64,000 nt of DNA from Candidatus Woesearchaeota archaeon. GTDB lineage: Archaea; Nanobdellota; Nanobdellia; Woesearchaeales; JAFGLG01. The stretch is from assembly GCA_016928155.1 (NCBI GenBank), contig JAFGLG010000009.1:62001-126000 (forward strand). Reading direction: 5' to 3'. The notes beneath the pieces are model-generated. The model was not told the DNA's origin and made no database searches. It was given only the letters and a program-made list of their open reading frames with translations. A program made the translations under genes and the position numbers. Below are positions 32,764 through 64,000 of this stretch, one piece after another. The stretch's first letter is position 1. The number at the start of each line of letters is the position of its first letter.

Positions 32764-33795
32764 ATGGGGGATATCGGACTTTTCATACCATGCATAATCT
32801 ATCTTGGAGCCATAACCACTTACACAGACCATAAATACAAAAAGATACTCAACAAACATATCGTCTGGGCACTCATCTATGCTGCAGCCATCTATCTGAT
32901 CCTCGCCTTCAGCCATATCCTGACAGATTTTACCACAACAGCAATCTATCTGACAACAGGCGCGGCCATGTCATTCATGATATGGTATCTAGGATACTGG
33001 GGCGCAGGAGATGCAAAACTGTTCATAGCATATACAGCGCTTGTTCCTGCAAACACCTATCCGCTGCACAATGAATATGGGTGGATATATCTCCTGGCAG
33101 GAATATTCTCTGTGGGATTCATACTCCTAGCATTAAAAGCAACTATCAAAAGCCTCAAAAAGCCCAAAGAAACAGCAAAAATGCTCATCAGATATGCAAA
33201 GGAGAGAATGCCCACAGCAATACTCGGGATATTCAGCATATCTTGGGCATTGGAGGGTATATTCAAATTGATTGGGGCGAGCCCAGGTTTCATGCTTAAT
33301 TTTGCAGCAACATATGCTGCCTATGCTGCGTTGGGATATGCATTCAAGGACAAGAAAAAATATCCTCTCATAATATTCGGGGCAATAGCAGCAATCAGGC
33401 TAATCACAGACTTCAGCAGCATGAACATGGATGTCCTCTACGGACTGCTCAAATATCTCATACTGTTCCTTATAATAGGATTCACAGTCAGCGGGACACA
33501 GCCGAAAAAAGCCAGGATAGACCAACTCGAAGCCGGGATGGTGCTTGCGGAGACGATATACAAGGACAAAGAAGGATACAAAAGATGCCAGATAAGCGAT
33601 CAGCATCTCAAGAACAGGGAATTCGTCATAGATTATGAGAAAAACAAGCTTGATGAGAATGATGTGATGAAACTGAGAAAATTATATAAGACAAAAGGTT
33701 TCCCATTCAGGCATCTGAGGATAAAGAAAATGCAGGCATTCGCAGCATTCATGTTCCTCGGGGTGATGATCATAATAATTGCAACCATGATATAA
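32764..33795 (+). CDS. GxGD prepilin/preflagellin peptidase (A24 family)
   Basis: 343 aa, multi-pass membrane aspartic protease. The two catalytic aspartates are visible: Asp22 in TYTDHKYKKI and Asp83 in GAGDAKL (GxGD motif). About seven or eight hydrophobic segments are present. A basic cytoplasmic-looking insertion near the C-terminus (QPKKARIDQLEAGMVLAE ... LRKLYKTKGFPFRHLR) precedes a last helix. Archaeal FlaK/PibD-type enzymes cut class III signals just after the positive residues of pilins. The many KKGQ-type leaders at 2.1-27.9 kb are obvious candidate substrates. The hxs cassette starts 23 nt downstream on the same strand, so it may be co-transcribed. Confidence 0.88.
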   Translation: MGDIGLFIPCIIYLGAITTYTDHKYKKILNKHIVWALIYAAAIYLILAFSHILTDFTTTAIYLTTGAAMSFMIWYLGYWGAGDAKLFIAYTALVPANTYPLHNEYGWIYLLAGIFSVGFILLALKATIKSLKKPKETAKMLIRYAKERMPTAILGIFSISWALEGIFKLIGASPGFMLNFAATYAAYAALGYAFKDKKKYPLIIFGAIAAIRLITDFSSMNMDVLYGLLKYLILFLIIGFTVSGTQPKKARIDQLEAGMVLAETIYKDKEGYKRCQISDQHLKNREFVIDYEKNKLDENDVMKLRKLYKTKGFPFRHLRIKKMQAFAAFMFLGVMIIIIATMI

Positions 33796-33818: not shown

Positions 33819-34166
33819 ATGATGGAAACAAACAGGACAAACATAACTGTGGACAGGGAAAAAGGAAGAGCGATTATCAAGGTGAATGCCCAGATATACA
33901 ACAAGGATATTGTTCTGAATGCAGCTTATGTGTTCCTCGACAAGCATTATGTCCTGATAGACGGGAATCCTGAAGATGAGATAAGCGTGGAGCTGATCCC
34001 GAAAGACGGCAGCGACCCTGAAAAAGCGGCACTGGAATTCAGCAATGAGCTCGTCAATTACGCAGAATACCACGCCCAGCAAGAGAGGAACAAAAGCATA
34101 AGGGACATGATAGTCCACAGAGCCCTCTACGGCAAGCAGGAACAGGCAAAAAATGAGCAGCAATGA
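33819..34166 (+). CDS. hxsD: HxsD-like protein of a His-Xaa-Ser radical SAM system (copy 1)
   Basis: 115 aa (ATG at 33819 or 33822, preceded by GAGGT). From memory it matches HxsD: a strand-rich start, then IYNKDIVLNAAYVFLDKHY, DEISVELIPKDG, and EFSNELVNYAEYHAQQERN, corresponding to the family's late LLNDYxLRE-like helix. It continues to RDMIVHRALYG, as in longer members. HxsD is a small accessory protein always found with the HxsB/HxsC radical SAM enzymes in His-Xaa-Ser peptide systems; its biochemical role is not established. It overlaps the next gene by 14 nt. Confidence 0.75.
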   Translation: MMETNRTNITVDREKGRAIIKVNAQIYNKDIVLNAAYVFLDKHYVLIDGNPEDEISVELIPKDGSDPEKAALEFSNELVNYAEYHAQQERNKSIRDMIVHRALYGKQEQAKNEQQ

Positions 34167-34374
34167 AATCATCTTCTCCCTGAACACAGGATTCTACAGC
34201 AAGGACAGCATAAAGGAGACGATAGACGCTTTCTCACAATTCGGGAAATTCACAATGACAGAAACGCAGGACAGGATCATGATAAGATTCGAACCCTGCG
34301 AAGGGCTAGATGAAGGAACAATAATGAAGGTGGAAAATGAATTCAGGAACCATGCGCTCGCATCAGGATCCTAG
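34153..34374 (+). CDS. Second, shorter HxsD-like protein
   Basis: 73 aa. The layout FSLNTGFYSKDSIKETIDAF, then DRIMIRFEPCEG, then VENEFRNHALASGS mirrors HxsD copy 1 (strand, helix, strands, EF-N-x-L helix) but lacks the last segment. It is probably a diverged duplicate. It overlaps copy 1 upstream by 14 nt and the maturase gene downstream by 23-38 nt, so the three are translationally linked. Assignment rests on pattern similarity only. Confidence 0.6.
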   Translation: MSSNEIIFSLNTGFYSKDSIKETIDAFSQFGKFTMTETQDRIMIRFEPCEGLDEGTIMKVENEFRNHALASGS

Positions 34375-35788
34375 AGCAGGGCGCATCCCAAACAGCTACA
34401 GGACAAGGAAGATAGGCGACAGATACCTGCTGACCACAGAACACGGGCAATGGGTGATGCTCACAGAGAAGGACTTCAGGGCCATGAGAGTGGGGAAAGA
34501 ACCTGAAGATATACACAAAGCGCTCTATGAAAAAGGAATACTTATCGACGAGGGTAATATCGAGAGGATAACCGACCACTACAGGCAGAAGAGCAAGTTC
34601 CTGTTCAACGGCACATCACTGCATATACTCGTAGTCACAGAAAGCTGCAACAACCGGTGCGCTTACTGCCATGCCTCTGCAAAGGCAGGCCGAGAGCTCA
34701 ATATGGATAGGGATATCGCAAAAAAGACAGTCGATTTCATTTTCCAGAGCCCTACCAGGATGATGAATGTCGAGTTCCAAGGAGGGGAGACGCTGATGAA
34801 CTTCGAAACAATAAAGTTCATCGTAGAATATTCTGAAGAAAAGAACAAAAAAGCAGGGAAAAAAATTGAATATTCAATAGTGTCAAACCTCAATACACTC
34901 AATGATGGGATTATCGACTACTGCAAGAGGCATGATGTCAACATATGCACATCCCTCGACGGGCCGAAGGAGATACATGACTGCAACAGAAGATGCCTGA
35001 TTGCAGAGAGCAGCTATGAGAGGACCACCCAGGGCATGAAAAGGCTGACAGAAAAAGGCTTCAAGCCGGGTGCTCTCACAACAGTCACACGGAAATCACT
35101 GAATGACCCAAAAGGGATAATTGACGAGTATGTCAAACAGGGGAAAAAAAGCATACATCTGAGGAATGTCAACAAGCTCGGATATGCAGCCCGAGTCTGG
35201 GAAGATGTCGGGTACAGTGCAGAGGAATTCATAGAGTTCTGGAAAAAAGGCATGGATTATATCCTCGAACTCAACAAAAAGGGAACACTCATGACGGAAA
35301 GGATCGTGATGATATTCCTTAAGAAAATCTTCACAAACTCAGACCCCAATTACCTTGATATAAGAAGCCCGTGCGGCGCAGTCATAGGAATGATGTCATA
35401 CGGGATCAACGGGGACATATATTCATGCGACGAGGGAAGGATGATATCAGAGCCACTGTTCAGGATAGGGAATGTAAAAAAAGATGCATATGATGGAATA
35501 ATCAAGGCAAAAACCACAGCATCACTGATATCCGCATCACTGACTGACACAAAGTTCTGCGACACGTGCGCATACAAACCATACTGCGGGATATGCCCTG
35601 TGCTCCTGTATGCAAAGGACAACACACTCATAGGCAAGATCACAGCATCAGACAAATGCAAGATACAGATGGCACAGCTTGATTACATCTTCGATAAGCT
35701 GGCAAATGACAAAAAGGCATCAGAGATATTCATTGGATGGCTGGACACTGAATACAAAGGAAAAGATTTAAATAAGCATGAGGCTTAG
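34337..35788 (+). CDS. hxsB: HxsB-like radical SAM/SPASM peptide maturase
   Basis: 483 aa (ATG at 34337; 34352 is an alternative). An N-terminal RRE-like region (residues 20-90; ERYLL-type strand and winged helix) precedes the radical SAM motif CNNRCAYC (Cys104, 108, 111; CX3CX2C). Strong HxsB hallmarks follow: EFQGGETLMNFETIKFIVEY, CTSLDGPKEIHDCNRR, IIDEYVKQGKKSIHLR, DIRSPCG and YSCDEGRMISEPLFRIGNV. A C-terminal SPASM-like Cys set (FCDTCAYKPYCGICP, DKC) would hold auxiliary Fe-S clusters. HxsB enzymes are thought to modify His-Xaa-Ser repeat peptides. The precursor candidate overlaps its 3' end. Confidence 0.85.
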   Translation: MNSGTMRSHQDPRAGRIPNSYRTRKIGDRYLLTTEHGQWVMLTEKDFRAMRVGKEPEDIHKALYEKGILIDEGNIERITDHYRQKSKFLFNGTSLHILVVTESCNNRCAYCHASAKAGRELNMDRDIAKKTVDFIFQSPTRMMNVEFQGGETLMNFETIKFIVEYSEEKNKKAGKKIEYSIVSNLNTLNDGIIDYCKRHDVNICTSLDGPKEIHDCNRRCLIAESSYERTTQGMKRLTEKGFKPGALTTVTRKSLNDPKGIIDEYVKQGKKSIHLRNVNKLGYAARVWEDVGYSAEEFIEFWKKGMDYILELNKKGTLMTERIVMIFLKKIFTNSDPNYLDIRSPCGAVIGMMSYGINGDIYSCDEGRMISEPLFRIGNVKKDAYDGIIKAKTTASLISASLTDTKFCDTCAYKPYCGICPVLLYAKDNTLIGKITASDKCKIQMAQLDYIFDKLANDKKASEIFIGWLDTEYKGKDLNKHEA

Positions 35789-35795
35789 TGAGGAC

Positions 35796-36128
35796 ATGAC
35801 AGATTTCCCAAAGATACATAAAAAACTATGCGCATTCCTCAAAGATGAGGATGGAAGGGTCCCTAAAGAGACAATAGTGAAGATAGGAAAAGTGATGGTC
35901 GTGATTGGGATCGGACTAATCACCCAGCCAGAGGTTACAGCAGGCAATACCCACTACAATGAGTGGAAGCTCGAAGACACATATGCCCACCAGAATATGC
36001 TCTCTCTTGACATGCTGCAGGGATGCGATTCGGCAAACATAACAGGATCACATTCACACAACTCCCAGCCTGATGTTGACCATTTGAACAGATACTCTGA
36101 CAGCCATGGCAACGGCGGATGGTTTTAG
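35796..36128 (+). CDS. Probable precursor peptide of the Hxs-like system
   Basis: 110 aa from the ATG at 35796 (preceded by GTGAGG); an in-frame ATG at 35778 overlaps the maturase stop. The leader FLKDEDGRVPKETIVKIG plus the hydrophobic stretch MVVIGIGLITQPEV strongly resembles, from memory, leaders of HxsA-type peptides. The C-terminal core ends with GSHSHNSQPDVDHLNRYSDSHGNGGWF, written here in parts: GSHSHNS and SDSHGNGGWF. This keeps only scattered His-x-Ser elements instead of long tandem HxS repeats, as if the core were degenerate or of a new type. The position directly after hxsB supports the substrate role. Confidence 0.7.
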   Translation: MTDFPKIHKKLCAFLKDEDGRVPKETIVKIGKVMVVIGIGLITQPEVTAGNTHYNEWKLEDTYAHQNMLSLDMLQGCDSANITGSHSHNSQPDVDHLNRYSDSHGNGGWF

Positions 36129-50634: not shown

Positions 50635-51378
50635 TCATTTCCTAAGCTTCCTGCAGAAGCACAAGAAACCAGTGTGGCCAATGGCCTTGTTATCGGGTCT
50701 GACCTTCTTCCCTTTAGCCTCCCAATCACGATGGATGAGCTCGACAGTCTTGAGATACAAGAATTCCGGATGCTTATCCAGCTCATCAAGGAAAGCAGTG
50801 ACCTGGGTGATGCAAGGATTATAGATAACAAGGAAAGCGCCTGGCTTAAGAGCTTTTGAAGCATTTGCGAGCGCCCTGTGAGGCTCAGGAAGATCAAACA
50901 CAATGAGATCAAGATTCTTCTGCCTGATCCTTTCGTAAACATCCTGCTTGATCACCTCAATATTCTTCATCCCCATGTAATCAACATTGTGCCTGACTGT
51001 GTCCAGATGATCATCCCTGATATCACAGGTATAGACTTTCTTCACATATCTCGCAAGGAAGACAGCAAGATAGCCAGAGCCTGCCCCTGCATCCAACACT
51101 TTGGACTCCCTGCCGACAAGCGTGGTGGCCAGGATGTAGCCGGCATCCTTGAGATGGATTATCTGGGCAGTGCGCTTCATCCTGGAATAATGATCCTTGA
51201 ATCCTGGATCCAAAAAGAAGAACTTCTTGCCTATATTTGACTGCAGGGTGTCGCCAACTTCTGCCCCCTTCAATTCTTCCTTCCTCAAGACACCATAAGT
51301 TGTATGAATATCCTGATCAAGGTTAGTGAAGAATTTCCTGCCATCAGGGGTCATGACGAGATTCTTTGTCTGCTTCAT
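50635..51378 (-). CDS. trmI: tRNA (adenine-N1)-methyltransferase TrmI
   Basis: 247 aa. A small N-terminal domain precedes a class I SAM fold: YILATTLVGRESKVLDAGAGSG (binding loop), the DIRDDHL acidic motif, and the catalytic-region VFDLPEPHRALANASKAL. The C-terminal HRDWEAKGKKVRPDNKAIGHTGFL is typical of TrmI. Archaeal TrmI makes m1A57/m1A58 in the tRNA T loop. Its ATG overlaps the stop of the giant 3053-aa gene by 4 nt, so it may be translated from that transcript. Confidence 0.85.
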   Translation of the reverse strand: MKQTKNLVMTPDGRKFFTNLDQDIHTTYGVLRKEELKGAEVGDTLQSNIGKKFFFLDPGFKDHYSRMKRTAQIIHLKDAGYILATTLVGRESKVLDAGAGSGYLAVFLARYVKKVYTCDIRDDHLDTVRHNVDYMGMKNIEVIKQDVYERIRQKNLDLIVFDLPEPHRALANASKALKPGAFLVIYNPCITQVTAFLDELDKHPEFLYLKTVELIHRDWEAKGKKVRPDNKAIGHTGFLCFCRKLRK

Positions 51379-54300
51379 CTTCGCCCCTTAGACAGACCAT
51401 CAAGATCCTTGAACACCCTTGACTCATGAGAGGAAGCATAATCTTCAAGCAGAGAGACAAAAAGATGCTCGGGCCAGGCAGCATTGACAAGCTGCTCCCT
51501 GATCTCAATCTTTGAGTAACCAAGTTCGAGGCAATGCTGAACATAGATATGGAGATAATCAGCAACCTCATCAAAATCATGACCAGCATGACCAGCATAT
51601 CTTGGCTCTTGCTCTCCGGGGACTACCTGATTGGCATGACCATAATGCGGTTGTTCTGGTTCAGCAGGCTTTGTGTGACCATAATGCGGAGACTCAGGCA
51701 CAATCGGCTTGGCATGACCATGACTTGGGGATGGTGGCCTTCCAGAATATGCAGCTGACTCTGCAACCTCAAATCCAGTATAATCCTCAGCTTCAGGAGC
51801 AGTATCATACCTGCCTCTTGAATAATAGAAAAGCAGGCCGGCAGAGACAAGCACAATAAGCATTATCAGAGACAATACAGAGTAATTCCTCTCAAGAGGG
51901 ATATCAGGATTCACGACAACAGCGCCGGTTATCGGAAGATGCTGGGAATTCTCCTGGAAAATACCTGATTCTTGACTATTCTCCAAAGGACCAGCTACAA
52001 GATCATCAAAAATACCACTCAAACCAGGGTTATCCCCATCATCCTGATCTGTTTCACCCACTGTGTAGAATGTGCCTCCTGAACCTCCGGATCCTGACGA
52101 ACCGCCGGAAGAACCACCAGAGGAACCACCAGAACCTGATGTACCACCTGAACCCATATCCCTGGCAAGCACGAACAGCGAACTCAGCTTAGTGTTTATG
52201 TAAACCAAATAGCCCTCATCGAAATCAATCACACTGGGATCAGAGAAGAGTACGCCTGAAGAATAAACAGGAGAGACAGTGAAAGGCATCTGGAACACCA
52301 CAAGATCAGGATCATGAGACCAGAAGCCGAAATACACATCCCCGTCATAATCCATATCGAATATCTGCGCATCTACAGGCACATACCTCCTGTTAGCACC
52401 AAGACTGAGCGCTGCAGAATCCAACATCGATATGTCATAGCCCCTTGAGAAGACATCGAACGACGGATACGACGAGAGATTTATGATACCGACAGACTGG
52501 ACAAGGAATGTGGTGTTTACACCAGATATCGAAAGGTAAGCCTCCTCAAAAGGCACAAGCCTCTCGACCGGTCCTGATGCATTGAATGAATATGAATCCA
52601 GAGAGTACGGGTCAAGATAGACAAAGCCCAAAACAGCGTCTGTATCGATTCCGATGCTCTGGCCGACCGAAGTCGCGAACTCCACATATGAATCAGCGAC
52701 ATAACCTGCACTGTCAGACACCCTGATATTGGCATAATAATGCCCGATCATATCATTGTCCGAGTATACATAATTGAATGAAGAAGATGTCAAATCCGAC
52801 GCTGAATAGGAGTCAACAGACCCATCAGGCCTTATGATATCAAGATGTATACCATATGGTTTATAGAGCGCAGTTATATCAGCTTTCAGCTCGACATTCT
52901 GATGGAGCCGGACATTATCAGGCGAAGCTGTAAAGCTGGTGACAGCAAGAACACTTGGATTGACATAAAGGATCCCTCCCGGATTGCTGGTAACAGGACT
53001 GAAGCTACGTACATCTCTCCCATAAAACATCAGACCATACACCTGATTTGAGGAATCAAAGAATACAGATTCATCAAAATACATCCAATCCATCACGCCA
53101 GAGTATGTCCTGTTTGAACTGTTCAGGACATACTCTGCATCATAGACATTCTGACCAGTCAGATACCTCAGCTCATCATGGAAAACCCTCTCGAGCTTCG
53201 CACCAGCACCCCAGCTGTACACTGAAGGGAGAGACATCTGCCCTGACAATATGGTATCAGATCCGGCAGAGAAAGTGACCCGCTGCACACTCACATTATC
53301 AAGATGAATCGAATTCTGACCTTCAAACTCCAGGCTTGACAGGACAGAATCTGATATTATGTTCTGCGAACCGCTGCCTGAGACAAATGACGTATCGGCA
53401 AATCCCGCATCTGAGAGAGCCACCCTAAAACCTGTTGACAAGGAGACAATATCCTCATCAAAGATGCCCGGCTTATAACCATCCATCACCAGCCTATTCC
53501 CTTCTTCAGACACGATAGTCAGCCTGTTCAGTGAGACATTTGAGAAAGAGGCCCTTGACTGGCCGCGGACAAGAGCATTCACCTTTGTCAGGGTCGTATT
53601 ATGCAACACCAGATGCGTGGAGCCTGACGACAGATCCCGAGTATGCCTGCCTGATGTGAAATCCTCAAGGCTGAGGTCATAAGCATTGTCAGAGACAAAT
53701 GTTGTCCTATTGAGATATGAATCCCTGAATTCAGACCATGAGCCTCCTTCTATGAACATCAGCACATTGACAGCAGAATGCTCAAATATGACCTTGGCAC
53801 CCGGCTTGATGTAGACATGACCGTTAAGATCGATCACTGTATCCTTACAATACACCTCATGGTCGATCACCCAATCTGTGAGGGGATCATAGCTGCAATG
53901 GCCCACCTGGAACCATGATGAATACGCTTTCTCACCCAGTTTCCCATAATCATACGGGACAACAACCAGGCGATAATCAGTATCAAGAGACAAGAGCGTA
54001 GTATCCCATGCATAATGGATGATGCCCTGACCAGATATCGTGCCAGTGGCATTTGCAATGAACACTTCCGGACCGCCTTCTTCCTGGTAATACAATTTCA
54101 GCAGTATCTGCGAACTGTCAGGATCATAGACACTGACCTGAACATCGATGATATCACCATAGACACCGGAGACAGGACTGATGACAGCAGCACTGGGCGG
54201 TGTGCCTGAAAGATCGATAGGCAAAGTGAGCTCTGTAGAGTTAAATCCGTCAAATGCCTCGACAAAAACATCAACATCAGAGCCGGACTGATAAGTGCAT

Positions 54301-57300
54301 GAGAATGAAGCCTGTGTGCTGTATTCTGAAAGCTGAGAAAGCGGATCATTGATGTTGCAGTCATACCTCAAATAAACAGTGTCGAGGTCATAATCCAGAA
54401 CACCGGATATTGTGTAATCATAATAATATACCGACAAATCCTTTTCGGCGATGTAAGTCAGGGTGAATCCAGGCGGGCTGTTCGATATTGACTTGACAAC
54501 CTCGGCTGTCTCTGATGAGAGATTGTATATGTCATAGGCTTTTGCGGAGCACTTCATCAGATCCCCTCTCTTAAAGAAGCCCTGAGATGCATTCAGCACC
54601 GGCTGAGAAGAGACAAACTGATACACGCCCTGAGAAGTGTCATATTTATACCAGCCGAACTCCCTCCTCGGGATGTCTTCAGGATTGTCATCAGGATCAG
54701 AATAGCTGAAAGAGCAGGAAAGGTCTGAATCTGACCTTGGGGATGATGGGGTTACGGCCAGCGAGACAACAGGCCTGTGATTAACTGAAAATCGGCCGTC
54801 AACAGCATCAGAGCACCTGTTGGTGGAATCACATACCTTGATGTAATAGTCAACAGATGTCTCCTGTGTCGGCAGGACAGCATAATCACAGCTTATCAGC
54901 ATATTCGGAGTGTGGCCAGCAGGATATGGAGCATAACAATATTTCATATTATTGCCGCAGCCGTCGTTATAGGATATTTCCGGATCGCTGCAGACAAAGA
55001 TGTAACCTGACTCATTCACATCAGGATCAGTCCAGTTGACGCTGAATGTGACCTTGCTTCCCTCGCCGACAAACAAGGGATCGGCAGAATGATTTATTAT
55101 GTGAGGCGTATGGGTCTCATTCACATATGGCGGAGGCACAGAGCCAATAATCACAGAGACATTCCTGGCTGAAGATGAGTACGGGTCTGAGGCAATTATC
55201 TCACAAGTCCAATTATCACCAACATCTGTCCATGATGAGCCCAGATAAGGCTGGTCAGGATGATCAATCCAAGTCCCGTTCTGGTACCACCTGAATGCGA
55301 GTGAGTAAGTGTCACCATCAGGATCATCAATCGAGTAGATGCAGTTCAGCTGGTCATCATCACCAGGATAGGCCGGGGATATCGAACTCTGTATCACAGG
55401 AGGCCCATTCTGCACAAGAACAGAAGCTGAAGGACGGAAGACATCATCTGCAAGATCATAAATATCCTTCACCTTCACCTCACATTTTATCCTGTCATTC
55501 CTCCTGTAGTCTGAATAATCAAGCTTATCCTGCTGCACAAGGACAAAGCTGCCATGGCTGTTGGCCTGCTTGTACCAGTTTATGCTATGGGTCTCAAAAA
55601 AGTCATCTATGCCTGCATCATGGCTGATGTAAGTGTAATTGCATGTCAGGGTCTTATCAGAGGTTATCGGAGCAGGGAGGAGTGTCACATTGACAGCAGC
55701 CGGCCTGTGGTTTATTATCAGATCCCCGAACAGGATGTTTGAGCAGTACATGTCACTGTCGCATACCATCCCATAATAATCTGTGAATGTCGCAAGCTGA
55801 TCCTCGATCACATAAGGCACTGACATCATGACGCCTTCACCTGATCCTGTGATGTGATGCTGGATGATCGGCTTGTCAATGCAGCCCGTAGGCTCAATGA
55901 GGCTTGAGTTGCAGATATAAAGCCAGAAGTCTGAAGAATCCGAGTCCTCGAACTCGAAATAGAACTCTATTGCCTGACCCACATTAGACGGGAGTATCTG
56001 GGTTGAGTCAGAGTACAATGAGATAAGCCTCGGGACCTCACCTGTATAGACAGCCGGTCTTATCCTGACAGGCAAGGATGAGACAGGACTGCCAGCCACT
56101 TCCCCGTCATGGGCAAAAGCAGAGCATCTCCAGTACTCGTTCTCACTTGTCCAGCCATGCGACAAAACATTGGACGATGAGTTGATGAAATGCTCAAATG
56201 TTCCTGAATTGTTGTTCATCCAGACATACCTTACCGTGAAATTGTCACCATCAGGATCATATGAACTGTTGATATTGCAGTAGAGGTTAGCATTGTCTGC
56301 GAAATCCCTGTCTGAAGTGATATAAGCATACTGAAGCACCGGCTTATGGTTCACTGAGACCTCCTCTTTCATGAGATTGGAGCACAGCCATGAATCATCA
56401 CAGACCACAAACCATACATCACTGAACCAGTCTTCACCTGATATCACGTGCTCGGCCAAAACAGGATTATCACCTGTGAAACCAGCCCTCATTATCTCGG
56501 TCTCAAGGCACCCGCTCGGATTATAATAGGTGGTGTTGCAGACATACATCCTGACCTGCTGAGAGTTGGCATCTGACCAGTAAAGCGTTGATATCATCTT
56601 CTGGCCCTCATTGAAGAAATCAGAGTTCAGGGAAACATTGATTATCTTAGGATAACCAAAAACAGCAGGACCGATCCTTATCTGCCCTGACTGCTTCCAC
56701 GAGCCAAAACTATTATAGTCATAAGGCCTGACCCGGCAGTACCAGTAATCATTCTCCTGGGTATTCCCGTTTGCAAGGGTGTCATTAAGTATGGTGATAT
56801 AATACTCAAACACATCTGAACCTCCCCTCTTCACATACCACTCATACTCAAAGAAGATCTGATCGCCATCCTTGTCAACGGGAGCATGCACATCACACAC
56901 AATATTCTCTGTGTCCAGGGCATAATCCGGGGAGCCGGACTCGGCACTTATTGATGCAGCAGAGATCGACGGCTGATGATTGACAGAGAAATTGCCCATC
57001 TTCTGATTGGGATCGAGAGTGAGATAATCAGAGCACAGCCAATCCCCCCCGACCTTCCCGCCTGTGTCATCACAGACCATCAGCCAGTATGGAAGTGTGC
57101 CGAAATCCTCATCTTCAACCTGGTATGAGACTGTCAAGTTCTTCTCTGACTCCCACCAGGTCTCATGGAATATCTTCTGGAAACAGCCGGTCTTGTCGAT
57201 AGCAGTCGAATTGCATATGTAGAGCCTGACCTCCTCATCAGGGGTCGCATCATCCCAGACAACAGTGAAATTAATTTCGTCCCCGATGTTGAGCGTAGTG

Positions 57301-60300
57301 AGGGGAGAGTGGCTATAAGAGACAATCCACGGCGCGTGACCGCCAGTGCCGTCATCATTCGTGATCAGGTACCAAGGAGAATAGACAGTCATGCCATTCA
57401 TCGTGCCATCATCGGGAGTGACTGCGCACTGCCACATATCACCATTCAGGGTGTTGCCGTGCGTCACAATATTATGATCCGGGGCATCATAAGGATACAT
57501 GACTCCGGAACGGTTCACGAACCAAGCATATGAAAGCGTGACATTCTCGCCATCGACATCAAGCAGGCTGTAATCCACAGTGCAGTTGAGGTTGGCGCTG
57601 GTCGTGAAGTTCACCTTGTCAGAAACTATAGTGACCGCGTCTATCACAGGGGCGCGATTCACCCAGAACTTATCTGACTGCACAGACGAGCATCTGCCAT
57701 GATCGCAGATCCTGTAATAATAAGTGTTCTCGGCAGAATCAGAAGACCTCGTCTCATATGTGCATGATGAAGGGGATGAACCCAAGGAGGACTGGCAGTA
57801 CACTGAAGCAGAGCATCCTGAAACACCAATATCAGGCGATGAGCAGACAAACAATCTCGCCTGGTCGCTGTCTGTATCAGTCCAATTCACAGTGATGGCG
57901 AGATCATCGCCCTGGTTTATCCTCTGGGATGAATTACGGGAGTTATCAGAGTGGCCGGTGATGACAGGCTCATGATTGCCGCCGATAGTCACATTCGCTG
58001 AATCCGCAAATGAATCATCGCCGAAACCATGGTTATCATAGACCTTCACTTCACAATAGATCATGTCATCCAATGCGAAGTAAGAAGGGCTGAGTGTCTC
58101 TGATGTGACTGCGAGCTTCTGCCACTCATCATTGACAAGCTTGTACCACTGGTACTGCACCAATGAAGTATCTTCCCAGTCATGATCATTTGTGTAGATG
58201 CCCTCATTGTCAGGATCATTGAATGAGTAGGCACATGACAAAGTACTGCCGATGCCGGGTGAGGACGGGATTATCTGAACAGATGAGGCAAAAGGCCTAT
58301 GGTTGATATGAAGCGGAGACTTGCAGGATGAAGTTCCTGGATCACATTGCAGGGGGTTACATAATCCATAATTGTCACAGATGAAGCCCCACCACTCCAC
58401 AGATTCAGGACTGCCTCCCCCTGTGAGCGCATTCAGGGTGTTCCAAGAACATGTGGCCTGGGTGCCGCTCTGCACAAAACCAGAATTACACATGAATGTA
58501 CCTTCACCCTCTTCCATGCACTCATCAATCTCATCAGGACAGCCACTGTAAACCCTCAGCTCATAAGTATTCGGGGAAGGTTGGGTGTTTGGATCAGACG
58601 CAGTAACTGTGAACACGACATTATCACCTTCATCTGTCGGATCAGCGGCAGTGGATGAGTCCTCTGTCATCACAGTCTCGACCGGCGGGTTATTGACATA
58701 AAAATAACCATAACCCAGGCCTCCTGACACAGCAGCGCTCACAAATCCGCCAGTATTGTACTGCTCTCCGTTAGAGCATGAGCCATCCTCATCACAGAGC
58801 ATGACATAATAATCAACCCTGTCAGACATGCCCAGCGTATCTATCTGGCAGGTTCCTGTCGGGGCCTGCATATTCTCCTGATAGCAATAACAGCCAGTAT
58901 AAATGCCGGGATTGCCGGGATGGCAATTATCAAAATCCTGGGTCGGAGCCACAAGCAGCTGGACATTATCTGAATCAGAGAAAGTCACATTGATATCGAC
59001 AAGAGTGCTCTCATTGACCACAGAGCCGTCAGGTACTGACTGGAGCCCGAGGAATTCCGGCTCATGGTTGACAATGAATAGGCTGGATTTCTTCACAAAG
59101 GAATTATCATTAATGGTGTCGACAGCGCTGCAAGTAACAGTATAACGACCTTCATTAAGATCATCAAGACCGGAGCAGGTTATGGAAGATTCAGGATAAC
59201 CATTTGCCCCATAAGATACAGTCTTTGGACCAGCACATGGCAACATTGGATCAAGATGATTACCTGTCAGGTCAGTGACCTCGCATGTGACAGTGACAGG
59301 ATTCCTTGATGGATCCCCTATCCTGAACTTTGTCTGGAAAGCATCAGTGGTTATTATCTGATTCAAGGAAGGCTTGGTGAAGTTCAGCTGGAGACCATTT
59401 ACAATCGTGATTGACTTAGATTTCCAGCCGACAAGACCATACCCCCCATCAAATTCTGATGCTGTGCAATTCACAGTATATGCACCGGCTGCGAGATTCT
59501 CAAGACCTATGCAGTCAATCTGCGCGCCTGATGATGTCTCTGATATTTTCACATTTTTCCAATTGCATGCAACATCGGGCTCATCAAGCACATAGCAAGT
59601 GGCATTCATCTTCTGGTTATCATTAGCATGACTCACCACCAGTGATATGTTCATGAACCTCGCAAGGGAAACAGGCTCGATCTCAGAAATGGAAACAGAA
59701 GGCCCCTGAGCTATATCATAGTCAACGCAATGAACCCCTATCAAAACATCAGTCGGGTCATCACAGCATCTTGAATAATCATCATTAGACTTTAGGTATT
59801 CGCCGTTATCATCGCCGCAACACCCCGTACTTGTACCACTAATATACTCCCCAAATGCAGAAGTCTCACCACCAAAGACCCAAGCATCTTCATACCCGCA
59901 ATATACTTCATCTTCGCAGTAATTATTACCATTATCACAGTCTACCCAAGCGCCATTATATGTACCTGGCACGCATACATCATCTGGTTTGGCACTGTTC
60001 AGGCCCCAGTTATCGACGCTAAAAAGCCCTGAGGCAGGGTCAACACATACTGGATCAGAACCGAGTTCCATATAGATACATGCTTGGGGATTAAGGCAGC
60101 ATGCTGTATGGTTTATATTAGAAAGGCCATATGTCCATTCTGTGCCATCACCCTTGCAATTAGCTAATTTTGAGCAAACCAGCCTTGTGTTATACACAGG
60201 ATCAGGAGAGATGTCCCAGAAATTAGTCAGATAATTTGTATTGCAGAAAAAAATCGTGTCAGATGCTGAGTGCATCTGACAAAGCCCGCCTACACCATAT

Positions 60301-60536
60301 AGAATGCTGCACAAGCGGAATGTAGTGCCAATACAAAGATTCTGGGGCGCTTCAATATCATCTGACTCAACACACATATCCCCTTCAGTCTCGAAATAAC
60401 CGATGTTGCCGCTATCCTGATACTTGCCACCATCCCAACATTCCCAACTATAATATGAAAAATTACTGCAGACCACACCAAGCACAGAAGGCACTGCAAT
60501 AACTGCAATCAACAGCAAAAGAGGCAGCTTCTTCAT
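51375..60536 (-). CDS. 3053-aa giant membrane-anchored surface protein
   Basis: Signal peptide MKKLPLLLLIAVIAVPSVLG, then a Cys-rich N-terminal part. A long chain of PKD/Ig-like repeats follows, each with a conserved core such as NHRPxxxxxxITSDKxLxCxY and DPDGDxxxxxYxWY. After about residue 2150 comes a region like a parallel beta-helix (VIDHEVYCKDTVIDLNGHVY). A Ser/Gly-rich linker near 2780-2820 (GSGGTSGSGGSSGGSSGG) precedes a single helix at about 2885-2908 and a cytoplasmic tail of about 145 residues. The tail has imperfect P-H-Y-G-H repeats and ends in a helical domain (YVQHCLELGYSKIEIREQL) like those in other DPANN surface proteins. Probably an adhesin or fibre. It overlaps the HTH gene by 4 nt. 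Confidence 0.85.
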   Translation of the reverse strand: MKKLPLLLLIAVIAVPSVLGVVCSNFSYYSWECWDGGKYQDSGNIGYFETEGDMCVESDDIEAPQNLCIGTTFRLCSILYGVGGLCQMHSASDTIFFCNTNYLTNFWDISPDPVYNTRLVCSKLANCKGDGTEWTYGLSNINHTACCLNPQACIYMELGSDPVCVDPASGLFSVDNWGLNSAKPDDVCVPGTYNGAWVDCDNGNNYCEDEVYCGYEDAWVFGGETSAFGEYISGTSTGCCGDDNGEYLKSNDDYSRCCDDPTDVLIGVHCVDYDIAQGPSVSISEIEPVSLARFMNISLVVSHANDNQKMNATCYVLDEPDVACNWKNVKISETSSGAQIDCIGLENLAAGAYTVNCTASEFDGGYGLVGWKSKSITIVNGLQLNFTKPSLNQIITTDAFQTKFRIGDPSRNPVTVTCEVTDLTGNHLDPMLPCAGPKTVSYGANGYPESSITCSGLDDLNEGRYTVTCSAVDTINDNSFVKKSSLFIVNHEPEFLGLQSVPDGSVVNESTLVDINVTFSDSDNVQLLVAPTQDFDNCHPGNPGIYTGCYCYQENMQAPTGTCQIDTLGMSDRVDYYVMLCDEDGSCSNGEQYNTGGFVSAAVSGGLGYGYFYVNNPPVETVMTEDSSTAADPTDEGDNVVFTVTASDPNTQPSPNTYELRVYSGCPDEIDECMEEGEGTFMCNSGFVQSGTQATCSWNTLNALTGGGSPESVEWWGFICDNYGLCNPLQCDPGTSSCKSPLHINHRPFASSVQIIPSSPGIGSTLSCAYSFNDPDNEGIYTNDHDWEDTSLVQYQWYKLVNDEWQKLAVTSETLSPSYFALDDMIYCEVKVYDNHGFGDDSFADSANVTIGGNHEPVITGHSDNSRNSSQRINQGDDLAITVNWTDTDSDQARLFVCSSPDIGVSGCSASVYCQSSLGSSPSSCTYETRSSDSAENTYYYRICDHGRCSSVQSDKFWVNRAPVIDAVTIVSDKVNFTTSANLNCTVDYSLLDVDGENVTLSYAWFVNRSGVMYPYDAPDHNIVTHGNTLNGDMWQCAVTPDDGTMNGMTVYSPWYLITNDDGTGGHAPWIVSYSHSPLTTLNIGDEINFTVVWDDATPDEEVRLYICNSTAIDKTGCFQKIFHETWWESEKNLTVSYQVEDEDFGTLPYWLMVCDDTGGKVGGDWLCSDYLTLDPNQKMGNFSVNHQPSISAASISAESGSPDYALDTENIVCDVHAPVDKDGDQIFFEYEWYVKRGGSDVFEYYITILNDTLANGNTQENDYWYCRVRPYDYNSFGSWKQSGQIRIGPAVFGYPKIINVSLNSDFFNEGQKMISTLYWSDANSQQVRMYVCNTTYYNPSGCLETEIMRAGFTGDNPVLAEHVISGEDWFSDVWFVVCDDSWLCSNLMKEEVSVNHKPVLQYAYITSDRDFADNANLYCNINSSYDPDGDNFTVRYVWMNNNSGTFEHFINSSSNVLSHGWTSENEYWRCSAFAHDGEVAGSPVSSLPVRIRPAVYTGEVPRLISLYSDSTQILPSNVGQAIEFYFEFEDSDSSDFWLYICNSSLIEPTGCIDKPIIQHHITGSGEGVMMSVPYVIEDQLATFTDYYGMVCDSDMYCSNILFGDLIINHRPAAVNVTLLPAPITSDKTLTCNYTYISHDAGIDDFFETHSINWYKQANSHGSFVLVQQDKLDYSDYRRNDRIKCEVKVKDIYDLADDVFRPSASVLVQNGPPVIQSSISPAYPGDDDQLNCIYSIDDPDGDTYSLAFRWYQNGTWIDHPDQPYLGSSWTDVGDNWTCEIIASDPYSSSARNVSVIIGSVPPPYVNETHTPHIINHSADPLFVGEGSKVTFSVNWTDPDVNESGYIFVCSDPEISYNDGCGNNMKYCYAPYPAGHTPNMLISCDYAVLPTQETSVDYYIKVCDSTNRCSDAVDGRFSVNHRPVVSLAVTPSSPRSDSDLSCSFSYSDPDDNPEDIPRREFGWYKYDTSQGVYQFVSSQPVLNASQGFFKRGDLMKCSAKAYDIYNLSSETAEVVKSISNSPPGFTLTYIAEKDLSVYYYDYTISGVLDYDLDTVYLRYDCNINDPLSQLSEYSTQASFSCTYQSGSDVDVFVEAFDGFNSTELTLPIDLSGTPPSAAVISPVSGVYGDIIDVQVSVYDPDSSQILLKLYYQEEGGPEVFIANATGTISGQGIIHYAWDTTLLSLDTDYRLVVVPYDYGKLGEKAYSSWFQVGHCSYDPLTDWVIDHEVYCKDTVIDLNGHVYIKPGAKVIFEHSAVNVLMFIEGGSWSEFRDSYLNRTTFVSDNAYDLSLEDFTSGRHTRDLSSGSTHLVLHNTTLTKVNALVRGQSRASFSNVSLNRLTIVSEEGNRLVMDGYKPGIFDEDIVSLSTGFRVALSDAGFADTSFVSGSGSQNIISDSVLSSLEFEGQNSIHLDNVSVQRVTFSAGSDTILSGQMSLPSVYSWGAGAKLERVFHDELRYLTGQNVYDAEYVLNSSNRTYSGVMDWMYFDESVFFDSSNQVYGLMFYGRDVRSFSPVTSNPGGILYVNPSVLAVTSFTASPDNVRLHQNVELKADITALYKPYGIHLDIIRPDGSVDSYSASDLTSSSFNYVYSDNDMIGHYYANIRVSDSAGYVADSYVEFATSVGQSIGIDTDAVLGFVYLDPYSLDSYSFNASGPVERLVPFEEAYLSISGVNTTFLVQSVGIINLSSYPSFDVFSRGYDISMLDSAALSLGANRRYVPVDAQIFDMDYDGDVYFGFWSHDPDLVVFQMPFTVSPVYSSGVLFSDPSVIDFDEGYLVYINTKLSSLFVLARDMGSGGTSGSGGSSGGSSGGSSGSGGSGGTFYTVGETDQDDGDNPGLSGIFDDLVAGPLENSQESGIFQENSQHLPITGAVVVNPDIPLERNYSVLSLIMLIVLVSAGLLFYYSRGRYDTAPEAEDYTGFEVAESAAYSGRPPSPSHGHAKPIVPESPHYGHTKPAEPEQPHYGHANQVVPGEQEPRYAGHAGHDFDEVADYLHIYVQHCLELGYSKIEIREQLVNAAWPEHLFVSLLEDYASSHESRVFKDLDGLSKGRR

Positions 60537-60790
60537 GATCCCGCCCCCTTTATTTCCTTAACATATTTGCCCTGGGCCCTGCGCTTCTGCTGGGTCCTAT
60601 GATAGACAGTCCATATCGTGCGGTCATTACGGTTGAGAAGGACTGCGATCTCGTGGAATGAGAGCTCTTTCCTGTCCTTGAGATACTCCACCATTGCCTC
60701 GAGAACAGAGATAGACCTGTCTTTGAAAACCTCAGAAGGGATGTTGACTGATACTATATTGCCTGCTTCTTTTTCTCCTGACGTTGTCAC
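60533..60790 (-). CDS. Small HTH protein (sigma-region-4-like)
   Basis: 85 aa. A helix-turn-helix is predicted in the C-terminal half: VLEAMVEYLKDRKELSFHEI followed by LLNRNDRTIWTVYHRTQQKR. I recall this LSFHEIAxLLNRxDRTIW segment from small DPANN proteins, but no function is established for it. The DRTIW helix would read DNA. It is translationally coupled to the giant surface gene downstream, and the seven-copy palindrome array lies just upstream, so it is the prime candidate to bind those sites and autoregulate (inferred). Confidence 0.6.
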   Translation of the reverse strand: MTTSGEKEAGNIVSVNIPSEVFKDRSISVLEAMVEYLKDRKELSFHEIAVLLNRNDRTIWTVYHRTQQKRRAQGKYVKEIKGAGS

Positions 60791-60824
60791 AACCTCTTTT
60801 TCTGAAAATCACAAAAATAAAAAA

Positions 60825-61099
60825 TACTTACATTGTAAGTAGGAGGTATATCAAAAATCCGATAAAAACCGGGTTTTGGATTTCGTTGCGGGTTATTACT
60901 CACAATGTAAGTACGCAATAAAGCGATGCACAAATTCTATTACCTACAATGTGAGGTATTTTTTATAAAATTTTCGTTTTTTACTTACATTGTAGTGTAT
61001 ACTTAGCATACATTACTTACAATGTAAGTAAATTGAAGTTTGCTGGTTAATACTTACAATGTAAGTACAAAATGAAGTATTTTACTTACAATGTAAGTA
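60825..61099. repeat. Array of seven 17-bp palindromic operators
   Basis: The 352-bp gap (60791-61142) holds TACTTACAATGTAAGTA (7-3-7 perfect palindrome) at 61014-61030, 61051-61067 and 61083-61099. The same element with centre ATT lies at 60825-60841, a one-mismatch copy at 60897-60913, and diverged copies at 60941-60958 and 60982-60999. Start-to-start spacings are 72, 44, 41, 32, 37 and 32 bp. The two end copies stand directly upstream of the TATA regions of the divergent genes at 60790 and 61143. Irregular spacing and identical spacer-free elements exclude CRISPR. Likely a cooperative operator or iteron-type cluster. Confidence 0.9.
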
Positions 61100-61110
61100 A
61101 TAATTGAAAA

Positions 61111-61142: not shown

Positions 61143-61922
61143 ATGGAAAATCAGGCAAAAAAGAAGTTCGAATACCACAAGAAAAAATTCGGGATTGAGG
61201 ATTCTGAAGAGCTCAGGAAATTCGAAAAGCTGCTTGAGCTGACAGAATTCGACAAGCTGGAATGCTCAGTAAAACTAGAAGATGGGAAGATAAATGCGAA
61301 CAGATTCCACCTCATATGCTGGAATAAGCCTGACAAGGATTTTGTAAAAATATTTTATGCAATCAGAGAGTTCCTTCAGATAAAAGGGATAAACACTGAG
61401 ATAATAACAAATATGATGCCGAAGCTTGACCTTGACAGGACAGAAAAAATCGGAGTGGGGATAGATCTTAGGGAAAAAAGGGAGGAAAGCAGGGCAAAAA
61501 TATGGTTCAAGATAAAGGACTGGCCTGGGAAGGTTGAAGATATAATAATAAAATACACGAAGACCAAACTTGAGCATCTTTCAGATAAGAAAAGTCTTCT
61601 ATTTGGGATAGATTTCGGATTTGATGGAAAAAATTCAGTAAAGACATATGTCAAATTCAACGAGAAAGCAGCTAAAAAACATCTCTCCAGAGAAACCTTA
61701 GAATTAAGCGGATTGTCAGAAGAAATTTTAGTGACACAAAAAGATGATGAATACATAATTAATTTCTTTACAAAAGAAAGGTCAAAGATAGCAGAAAAAA
61801 CAGGGAACAAATATCTCATACAACTTAATGAACAGATAGATTACCAAGACGGCGGATTCATAACATTGTCAGAGAGAGAGATTAAGCAAGGCGAGGTAAG
61901 AAATGCAACAATATATTATTAA
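61143..61922 (+). CDS. LynF/TruF/PatF-like (ABBA-fold) peptide prenyltransferase homologue
   Basis: 259 aa, cytosolic, no signal or membrane helix. Compared from memory with cyanobactin PatF, several blocks align in order. These are YHKKKFGIED and CSVKLEDGKINANRFHLIC near residues 10-60, GVGIDLREKREESRAKIWF near 115-135, LLFGIDFGFDGKNSVKTY near 158-175 and the C-terminal EREIKQGEVRNATIYY. In cyanobactin pathways these enzymes transfer a C5 prenyl group to Tyr, Ser, Thr, Trp or other side chains, or act on termini. No substrate peptide is visible here. The convergent flavin/toroid gene overlaps its end by 4 nt, and the operator array is its promoter. Assignment is by recall alignment, not by search. 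Confidence 0.65.
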   Translation: MENQAKKKFEYHKKKFGIEDSEELRKFEKLLELTEFDKLECSVKLEDGKINANRFHLICWNKPDKDFVKIFYAIREFLQIKGINTEIITNMMPKLDLDRTEKIGVGIDLREKREESRAKIWFKIKDWPGKVEDIIIKYTKTKLEHLSDKKSLLFGIDFGFDGKNSVKTYVKFNEKAAKKHLSRETLELSGLSEEILVTQKDDEYIINFFTKERSKIAEKTGNKYLIQLNEQIDYQDGGFITLSEREIKQGEVRNATIYY

Positions 61923-64000
61923 TATTTCATACCTTCTAATTTCTTCAGAGCAAGCTCGGCCCAAGCAGAAGTGATCCTGCCCTTGTCCACACAATCATAA
62001 AAGCACTTATCATGCCCATCATCAAACCAATAATAAAGAACAGGCTCACCTTTCCAACCATCAGCCCCCTTCTTCGAAATAAGCCACCCCTTTGCCCTTT
62101 CCTGACTTGCCTCGCCCACACCTAAGCAATTCAATGCCAAGACCGCAGCGGAGGTATCAATAACTGAGCCATTCCAGCTGCCATCATCCTCCTGGGTATT
62201 AAGAATAAACTTTCCGGCCTTATCAACACTATCATGGAACCCCAAATCATGGAGCAACCTGACAGCATAAAAAGTGGTGATCATAAGAGAAGGAAACCAT
62301 TTGCCTCTCCAAAATCCCTTAGACTCCTGAGAGGATGCCACAAAAGCTGCACAAGCCTTAATCTCTGATGAAAAATTATCAGGGGATATCTTGTTAAGAA
62401 GATAGCCAATATGCGCAGTTGCATCAATTGAAGGACCTTTCCAGTAAGGCGCCCTGCCTTTCTGTGTGGTAAGAAAAGCTCCGTGCTCAACATTGTAAAA
62501 TAATTCCTTAAGCCTCTGTAAGCTGTACTTCAAAAAAGCCTTATCTTCACCGAACTCATACAAGCCTTCAATAACCAAAGCACTATCCTCGGCAGTGACA
62601 CCAACTCCATGCTGGTACTCCCACAAACCATCTTTAGAGATATATATCAAATAATCTCTAAGAGAAGCATCATGATTGGCCTTAAGAATGAGCCCATAAA
62701 AAGCTATGTCGCCTTCCTCCTTTGTGCAACGATAGACCGGCTTGTCTGCCATATCAAACACAGAAGCTCTCACCAGATAATCTGACCTAAACTTGGAGCA
62801 TACATCTTCCCTCTCAAGATACCTCCTGACACCCCTGCCAGATATCTTACCAGCATTGAGGGCTGCCCTCATGCCATAAGGCATCATGGAATCAACATCA
62901 ATGTATTCCCCAGAAATGAAAATCCTTTCAGAAGGCCTCTTCACCTTACCTATATCCTCTTTCATCCTCAAAAAACTCTCATCAATCACGGGGCCCACAA
63001 AAGGCCAATAATGCACATCAGAAAAAACCAGCACTTCTCTCCCTACAGGACCTATATTCAACTTGGAAAGGCAATCCGACGATGTCTCTGTCAGCTTATC
63101 CTCAGATAAACATCTCACACCCTCACATTTCTCACCAGCAAAATACACAAGAAACAAAGTATGGTCAGCTTTCCTCTGCTGCATCACAGTACTTGAAGCA
63201 AGATCAGGGGTGACAATGTAAGAAAAATCCTTGAAATCCACGTCCTTAAAACAAAGAGCGACAACAATGCCTGAGCCATATCCCAATGATGCAAGCAGTG
63301 AATCAGGAGGTTTATATCCCACCAGATCTGCTGCAATAGGGGCAGGAACTGTGATTATGACCGCCTTTGCGAAAATGGATCTCACTAAACCATCGTTATC
63401 AAAAATCACCTGGACATTGCCCCCAAATTCCTGGACCAAAAGGACATCAGCTGAAAAATGAATCCTATCCTTCAATACATCCATAAAACCATCAATCACT
63501 ATTGAATTCCCAGCCACACAGTAAGGTGATGAGAAATTGACAAAGGCATCACCCTGCCTGATAGGCAGATATTCTCTGATATCACCTGGGTGGATGACCT
63601 GAAAAAAGGAATTCAAAATCTTGTACAAATTATTAGGAAGATTGCCTGCAGATATCTTGCCAGACCTGAAATCATCAATTATTCTCATATCCTCTGGATC
63701 TAAACCAATACCCCTTAAACAACCCAAGACAGAATCACTGAAAAAAACAGACCCTTTATGCAATATTCCAATATCCTTTGAGGATGGCAACACCTTACAT
63801 TTCATATCAAAAGGCACCCACCTCTTATCAAAAGCAAAAACAGAACCCAAATCATAATAAATCCCATGCTGTGAGCGAGTCAATATCCTGCCACCTGGGA
63901 CCAGGGCCTTCTCAAGAACAAGAATCTCTTTGTCCTTCAACTCAAAAGCGGCATTCAAACCAGAAAGACCTGCGCCGATAATAACCACATCATAGACCCT
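61919..64000 (-). CDS. Flavin amine-oxidase-like protein fused to a terpenoid-cyclase/prenyltransferase-like toroid, N-terminus off window
   Basis: The frame is open to the right edge and reads RVYDVVIIGAGLSGLNAAF, so the true start is probably a few codons beyond the window. An N-terminal FAD-binding Rossmann motif (GAGLSGL), GGRILTRSQHG and a late amine-oxidase-type FISGEYIDVDSM ... ALNAGKISG place it with flavin amine oxidases or phytoene-desaturase-like enzymes (about 420 residues). The rest (about 270 residues) is a helical toroid with repeats such as NTQEDDGSWNGSVIDTSAAVLAL and SSQESKGFWRGKWF, like QW motifs of squalene cyclases or prenyltransferases. No DxDD cyclase motif is seen. It overlaps the prenyltransferase-like gene by 4 nt, convergently. 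Confidence 0.75.
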   Translation of the reverse strand, partial: RVYDVVIIGAGLSGLNAAFELKDKEILVLEKALVPGGRILTRSQHGIYYDLGSVFAFDKRWVPFDMKCKVLPSSKDIGILHKGSVFFSDSVLGCLRGIGLDPEDMRIIDDFRSGKISAGNLPNNLYKILNSFFQVIHPGDIREYLPIRQGDAFVNFSSPYCVAGNSIVIDGFMDVLKDRIHFSADVLLVQEFGGNVQVIFDNDGLVRSIFAKAVIITVPAPIAADLVGYKPPDSLLASLGYGSGIVVALCFKDVDFKDFSYIVTPDLASSTVMQQRKADHTLFLVYFAGEKCEGVRCLSEDKLTETSSDCLSKLNIGPVGREVLVFSDVHYWPFVGPVIDESFLRMKEDIGKVKRPSERIFISGEYIDVDSMMPYGMRAALNAGKISGRGVRRYLEREDVCSKFRSDYLVRASVFDMADKPVYRCTKEEGDIAFYGLILKANHDASLRDYLIYISKDGLWEYQHGVGVTAEDSALVIEGLYEFGEDKAFLKYSLQRLKELFYNVEHGAFLTTQKGRAPYWKGPSIDATAHIGYLLNKISPDNFSSEIKACAAFVASSQESKGFWRGKWFPSLMITTFYAVRLLHDLGFHDSVDKAGKFILNTQEDDGSWNGSVIDTSAAVLALNCLGVGEASQERAKGWLISKKGADGWKGEPVLYYWFDDGHDKCFYDCVDKGRITSAWAELALKKLEGMKY

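Follow-up and report, generated by a model that had tools for sequence, protein, structure and literature searches.

A divergent F-type peptide prenyltransferase in a woesearchaeal archaeon and its suggested link to the His-Xaa-Ser radical-SAM system

F-type prenyltransferases have been described from bacterial cyanobactin and lanthipeptide pathways and serve as tools for peptide lipidation. The presence of a gene resembling them in a genome of the Woesearchaeota raises the question of whether its product belongs to this family and, if so, which peptide pathway it serves in such a host. The gene lies in a stretch of 64,000 nucleotides (the window), which spans bases 62001-126000 of contig C9; the genome measures 1.48 Mb and is 99.7% complete. 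An archaeal-type RLI/ABCE1 ribosome-recycling ATPase is encoded on the same contig (46392-48128, 799.9 bits), and the genome is therefore archaeal. The claim of a sequence-only reading of this DNA that an F-type enzyme is present in an archaeon was borne out. The gene, designated F1, is as follows:

61143-61922, plus strand: F1, predicted F-type (LynF/TruF/PatF family) ABBA peptide prenyltransferase, 259 aa, ATG to TAA

The frame of F1 is intact over its full length and contains every block that had been quoted in likening it to PatF, LynF and TruF, a homology which was confirmed by profile and PDB sequence searches. F1 matched the Pfam family PF19156 (DUF5838) with an E-value of 1.6e-16 and 61 bits, against a gathering threshold of 28.8, and the NCBIfam model TIGR04445 (LynF/TruF/PatF) with an E-value of 1.3e-19 and 70.7 bits, which is below the curated cut-off of 140. 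The F homologue of a related genome, G498, also scored below this cut-off (134.4 bits), and the archaeal members are therefore outliers of the named subfamily. Based on these profile scores, F1 is placed in the wider PF19156 family, outside the TIGR04445 equivalence group. The best PDB sequence match was FjoF (E=4.6e-23), with weaker matches to Fl3F, SmiF, PirF, LimF, KgpF, PagF and DciF. FjoF and Fl3F (PDB 9vtb, 9vta), whose hosts are presumably not archaeal, are the nearest solved relatives and align along its entire length with F1 (E about 5e-23); no paper on FjoF was found in the open-licence literature.

An AlphaFold2 model of F1, for which the input was a three-sequence alignment, had a complete barrel (pLDDT 77.7, pTM 0.74). 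In a Foldseek search of the PDB with this model LimF was ranked first (TMq 0.77) and places 1-19 were all taken by cyanobactin prenyltransferases, followed by AmbP1 and other ABBA enzymes; the probability was 1.00 for LimF, KgpF, DciF, PagF, PirF and PatF. Fifteen invariant columns in an alignment of nine F members, five archaeal and four bacterial, were all kept in F1 (H12, E40, K44, R54, G106, D108, R110, S116, K119, G155, D157, Y169, E246, Y258 and Y259). In the group E40, R54, R110, K119 and Y169 we take the Glu to be the general base and the Arg, Lys and Tyr to be diphosphate contacts, as in the family. A structural check had been proposed in the sequence-only reading, with PatF/PagF-type top matches, an intact barrel and diphosphate-binding residues as the expected outcome, and all of these were obtained. 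By family and modelled fold, F1 is an F-type ABBA prenyltransferase with predicted catalytic activity.

F1 shares with the F-type cyanobactin enzymes (LimF, PagF, PirF, KgpF, DciF and PatF) the sequence family, the ABBA barrel, the invariant Glu, Arg, Lys, Asp and Tyr and a C-terminal YY, but differs from them in its archaeal host, its score below the TIGR04445 cut-off and an identity of about 20-30%. In contrast to cyanobactin pathways, neither PatA/PatG-type proteases nor a PatE-type precursor were found beside F1. In a tree of 11 F proteins the archaeal members were located outside the cyanobacterial clade (support 100/99) on long branches, and a joint origin of the archaeal branches is neither shown nor excluded by this tree. 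Leader-dependent prenylation of lanthipeptides is carried out by MppC, another alpha-beta-beta-alpha enzyme (PMC12715784). MppC is like F1 in being a peptide prenyltransferase of this fold from outside the cyanobactins, with leader recognition (PMC12715784), but has a lanthipeptide (LanM) partner and a Nif11-like leader; the two are set side by side by description, not by sequence.

Genes for F were identified in 5 of 353 genomes of the Woesearchaeota order, and clear carriers numbered two in an even sample of 371 genomes of the phylum; weak matches in G081, G138, G292 and G330 (E about 1e-3 to 1e-4) were left out of the count. No relatives of F1 were found among phage, plasmid and viral contigs. 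The GC content of F1 is 35.5%, against 46.5% for the window, which suggests a recent acquisition, and F1 was probably gained horizontally. A second copy, F2, is located just past the window (C9:126144-126940) and is 31% identical to F1. F2 is broken: its frame shifts near codon 98, and a TAA stands where the SRxK motif should have its conserved Lys. F1 could be a horizontally gained gene decaying into a non-functional one like F2, and the AT-richness of F1, together with its being about 10 residues shorter before the strand at 194-200, would agree with this. Such decay is improbable, however, in view of the intact frame, the retention of every invariant residue and the complete barrel of the model.

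The neighbours of F1 are two giant surface proteins, an HTH protein, a flavoenzyme and the broken F copy. Giant secreted-looking proteins of up to 3346 aa are encoded at 11607-32646 and 51375-60536 of the window; two such genes flank F1, and protease domains are absent from both. The smaller features next to F1 are:

60533-60790, minus strand: 85-aa HTH-like protein, weak HTH matches below cut-offs
60824-61100, unstranded: array of the 15-bp palindrome ACTTACAWTGTAAGT upstream of F1, with four perfect, one one-mismatch and two degenerate sites
61919-64000, minus strand, start beyond the window: protein with an FAD amine-oxidase-like N-terminus (PF01593, 6.9e-13) and a squalene-cyclase-like toroid C-terminus (PF13243, 3.7e-9)

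The array comprises seven sites, compared with 0.95 expected, and none of 100 shuffles reached this number; the sites likely represent one or more operators, as predicted from their sequence. The gene for the 85-aa protein is divergent from F1 across the array and overlaps the start of a giant protein gene, and its product is a regulator candidate only. The palindrome was also identified as a four-copy array at C17:37729-37807 and as a single copy at C6:19348, and was not found at the His-Xaa-Ser (HXS) locus of the window. Because it recurs at these two unrelated loci the array is not dedicated to F1, contrary to what had been claimed. On C17 the array is flanked by two genes that were named by eye, one for a KH-domain protein and one primase-like.

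The flavoenzyme-toroid gene is downstream of F1 and convergent with it, and the stops of the two genes overlap. In the sequence-only reading F1 was thought to form a small cassette with this flavin/toroid protein and the operator array. A more specific version, in which the two proteins carry out prenylation, oxidation and cyclisation, may be drawn by analogy with NctPC, a prenyltransferase-cyclase fusion (PMC13290415). Like NctPC, the locus brings together a prenyltransferase and a terpene-cyclase-like domain; the genes adjoin, the flavoenzyme has F1 on one side and the broken F2 on the other, and the toroid matches squalene-hopene cyclase (SHC) with an E-value of 2.8e-10. NctPC, however, is a single fusion protein acting on Trp, whereas the toroid here is fused to a flavoenzyme and encoded on the strand opposite to F1, in convergent orientation. 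The flavoenzyme-toroid has no orthologue in any of the remaining 352 genomes of the order, among which are the other F carriers, four in number. It is probably not a conserved partner of F1, and as a candidate for that role was ruled out by its occurrence in this genome alone among 353. The DxDD motif was not seen by eye in the toroid, and its PSIDATAH aligns with PSEDVTAH of SHC (from residue 443), not with DxDD. No plausible small precursor-like ORF was found near F1. Since the toroid is without orthologues, the palindrome occurs elsewhere and neither precursor nor protease is adjacent, the cassette reading is unsupported: neither its partner nor its dedicated operator could be upheld, and a prenylation, oxidation and cyclisation cassette has little probability.

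A different peptide pathway is encoded in the window itself, namely the core of an HXS system, which the sequence-only reading had not connected with F1. The HXS system, consisting of HxsA, HxsB, HxsC and HxsD, is attributed to Haft and Basu (cited in PMC9062424). The features of the locus are:

32764-33795, plus strand: A24-type (prepilin-peptidase-like) membrane protease, PF01478 27.6 bits against a cut-off of 26.5
33819-34166, plus strand: HxsD, TIGR03976 50.2 bits against a cut-off of 50
34153-34374, plus strand: 73-aa ORF after HxsD, from translation only, resembling the HxsD N-terminus by eye
34337-35788, plus strand: HxsB radical-SAM/SPASM maturase, TIGR03978 443.8 bits against a cut-off of 370
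35778-36128, plus strand: HxsA3-like precursor of 116 aa ending in NGGWF, NF038309 1.1e-8 and 34.8 bits, below the cut-off of 65

The 73-aa ORF is a possible HxsD-like duplicate. The precursor has the conserved leader and a single HxS motif. HxsC was not found in this locus, and the best non-HxsB match in the genome, on another contig, reached 47.3 bits against a cut-off of 267.9. The locus resembles the HXS system in that HxsB and HxsD score above curated cut-offs and the HxsA-type precursors of relatives carry real HxS repeats; the archaeal version differs in its A24-type protease, which keeps its synteny with HxsD and HxsB in relatives, in the missing local HxsC here and in F being attached or fused in some genomes. 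F1 is 25.4 kb from this core, with housekeeping genes between.

In two relatives the connection is closer. In G258, F is located within a cluster of genes for HxsB (2.1e-138, above cut-off), an HxsC4-like radical-SAM protein, HxsD and an HxsA3-like precursor, which also holds a B12-type radical-SAM/flavodoxin fusion. G498 encodes a triple fusion of 1005 aa (on contig C27; 7713-10730 of the extracted locus) in which a MiaB/RimO-like methylthiotransferase domain (219.7 bits) and an HxsC-like radical-SAM domain (76.4 bits) precede a C-terminal F, the TIGR04445 domain (134.4 bits). The fusion gene is followed by those for the A24-type protease, HxsD and HxsB, and the fusion is independent evidence for a shared F/HXS pathway. 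The F gene of G439 is convergent with an adjoining radical-SAM gene on a short contig. The F gene of G048 borders a glycosyltransferase/exporter cluster and lies 11.6 kb from an HXS locus.

HxsD was identified in 66 of the 353 genomes of the order and in all five F carriers, giving a hypergeometric probability of 2.0e-4 for this co-occurrence, or 1.6e-3 when genera are counted. In the four genomes with F and HxsB on one contig the genes are 25.4, 11.6, 4.7 and 1.9 kb apart (Fisher combined 1.2e-5, or 5e-4 at one genome per genus); these tests assume independence among genomes, and the counts behind them are small. An F-like gene was absent from all 40 archaeal HXS regions taken from genomes without detected F, and F is therefore an optional decoration, accessory at best. 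Statistics, synteny and the fusion suggest that the His-Xaa-Ser radical-SAM system is the pathway of F.

Our best reading, in which we place about even confidence, is that F1 is a leader-guided prenyltransferase for HXS-type peptides, with putative substrate and donor. It builds on the family and fold of F1, its conserved residues, the co-occurrence and linkage of F with HXS and the fusion in G498, and MppC offers a precedent. F1 would transfer a short isoprenyl group (DMAPP or GPP) to a side chain of a peptide of ribosomal origin, and the most likely substrate of F in these archaea would be an HxsA-type precursor. In the putative order of steps, HxsD and leader-binding domains would present the HxsA core, HxsB and HxsC-type radical-SAM enzymes would modify this His/Ser/Gly-rich core, F would attach the lipid to a nucleophile of the peptide, either the conserved Tyr/Trp at the C-terminus or a His/Ser, and the A24-type protease of the HXS locus would mature the peptide. 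For the organism studied here this supposes that F1 may serve an HXS locus 25 kb off. This distance, the missing HxsC of that locus, the 40 HXS regions without F, the different surroundings of F in G048 and the score of F1 under the TIGR04445 cut-off speak against the reading. The gap and its housekeeping genes would also suit an F1 that is functional on a peptide or amino acid but outside HXS, its target being an unlinked peptide, a surface protein or a small molecule, with the HXS links of relatives reflecting a different usage. The position of F1 between two giant surface-protein genes, the glycosyltransferases beside F in G048 and the promiscuity of F-type enzymes (PMC12715784) point the same way, but HXS is present in every one of the five F genomes (p=2e-4), the distances are short, and two relatives have F either among the HXS genes or joined to an HxsC-like domain. 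We regard a role outside HXS as rather unlikely. The wider proposal, that the His-Xaa-Ser peptides of Woesearchaeota are radical-SAM-modified RiPPs to which F adds a prenyl lipid, in one lineage with a triple-fusion polypeptide, is a tentative one, held with somewhat less than even confidence.

HxsA-type precursors with a common leader were identified in four of the five F genomes, and the leader HMM is common to the precursor of the window and 25 or more archaeal HXS precursors. The conserved leader has the pattern KIKKKxxxFLxxEDGxV. True His-Xaa-Ser repeats are present in the precursors of G439 and in one of G048. Tyr or Trp is the last residue of most archaeal HxsA, in genomes with F as in those without. 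The C-terminal aromatic residue was considered as an F-specific mark of the prenyl acceptor and rejected; as such ends are equally common without F, the acceptor is not singled out. Many of the HxsD genomes of the order have true HxS-repeat precursors ending in Tyr or Trp.

No description of an archaeal F-type member, of HXS in archaea or of prenylated archaeal RiPPs was found in open-licence papers, nor was a structure of an HXS product. This agrees with the claim that no archaeal member had been described, and since the search covered open-licence papers only the absence is weak evidence. The main text of an archaeal RiPP mining study is without the words prenyl, His-Xaa-Ser and Woesearchaeota (PMC12144867), and a 2026 review of peptide prenylation presents the F family as cyanobactin prenyltransferases, with archaea only in another context (PMC13290415). 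The family of F1 is known, and F1 is a divergent representative of it; what is new is the archaeal host and the HXS link, which is testable and, for F1 itself, no more than suggested. Being linked, and once fused, to HXS, the DPANN members carry the F family into another domain of life and another class of peptide. The link also provides a handle on the HXS product, for a prenyl mark would appear as a testable mass shift on HxsA; if the wider proposal is true, neither a lipidated HXS product nor an archaeal F-type prenyltransferase would have been known before. Speculatively, lipidated small peptides of host-dependent archaea could affect host attachment or competition.

Contigs C155 and C303 of G439 were considered as halves of one fusion, which was rejected since no overlap of their ends was found and C155 ends in an unrelated frame. 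The HXS region of this genome (C155:17000-23353) contains at least three further HxsC-like radical-SAM domains, and two of them share one 977-aa frame with a ferredoxin-looking stretch. Giant proteins encoded next to the HXS cluster of G258 are homologues of some of those in the window, and HXS and the giant surface proteins may be functionally linked.
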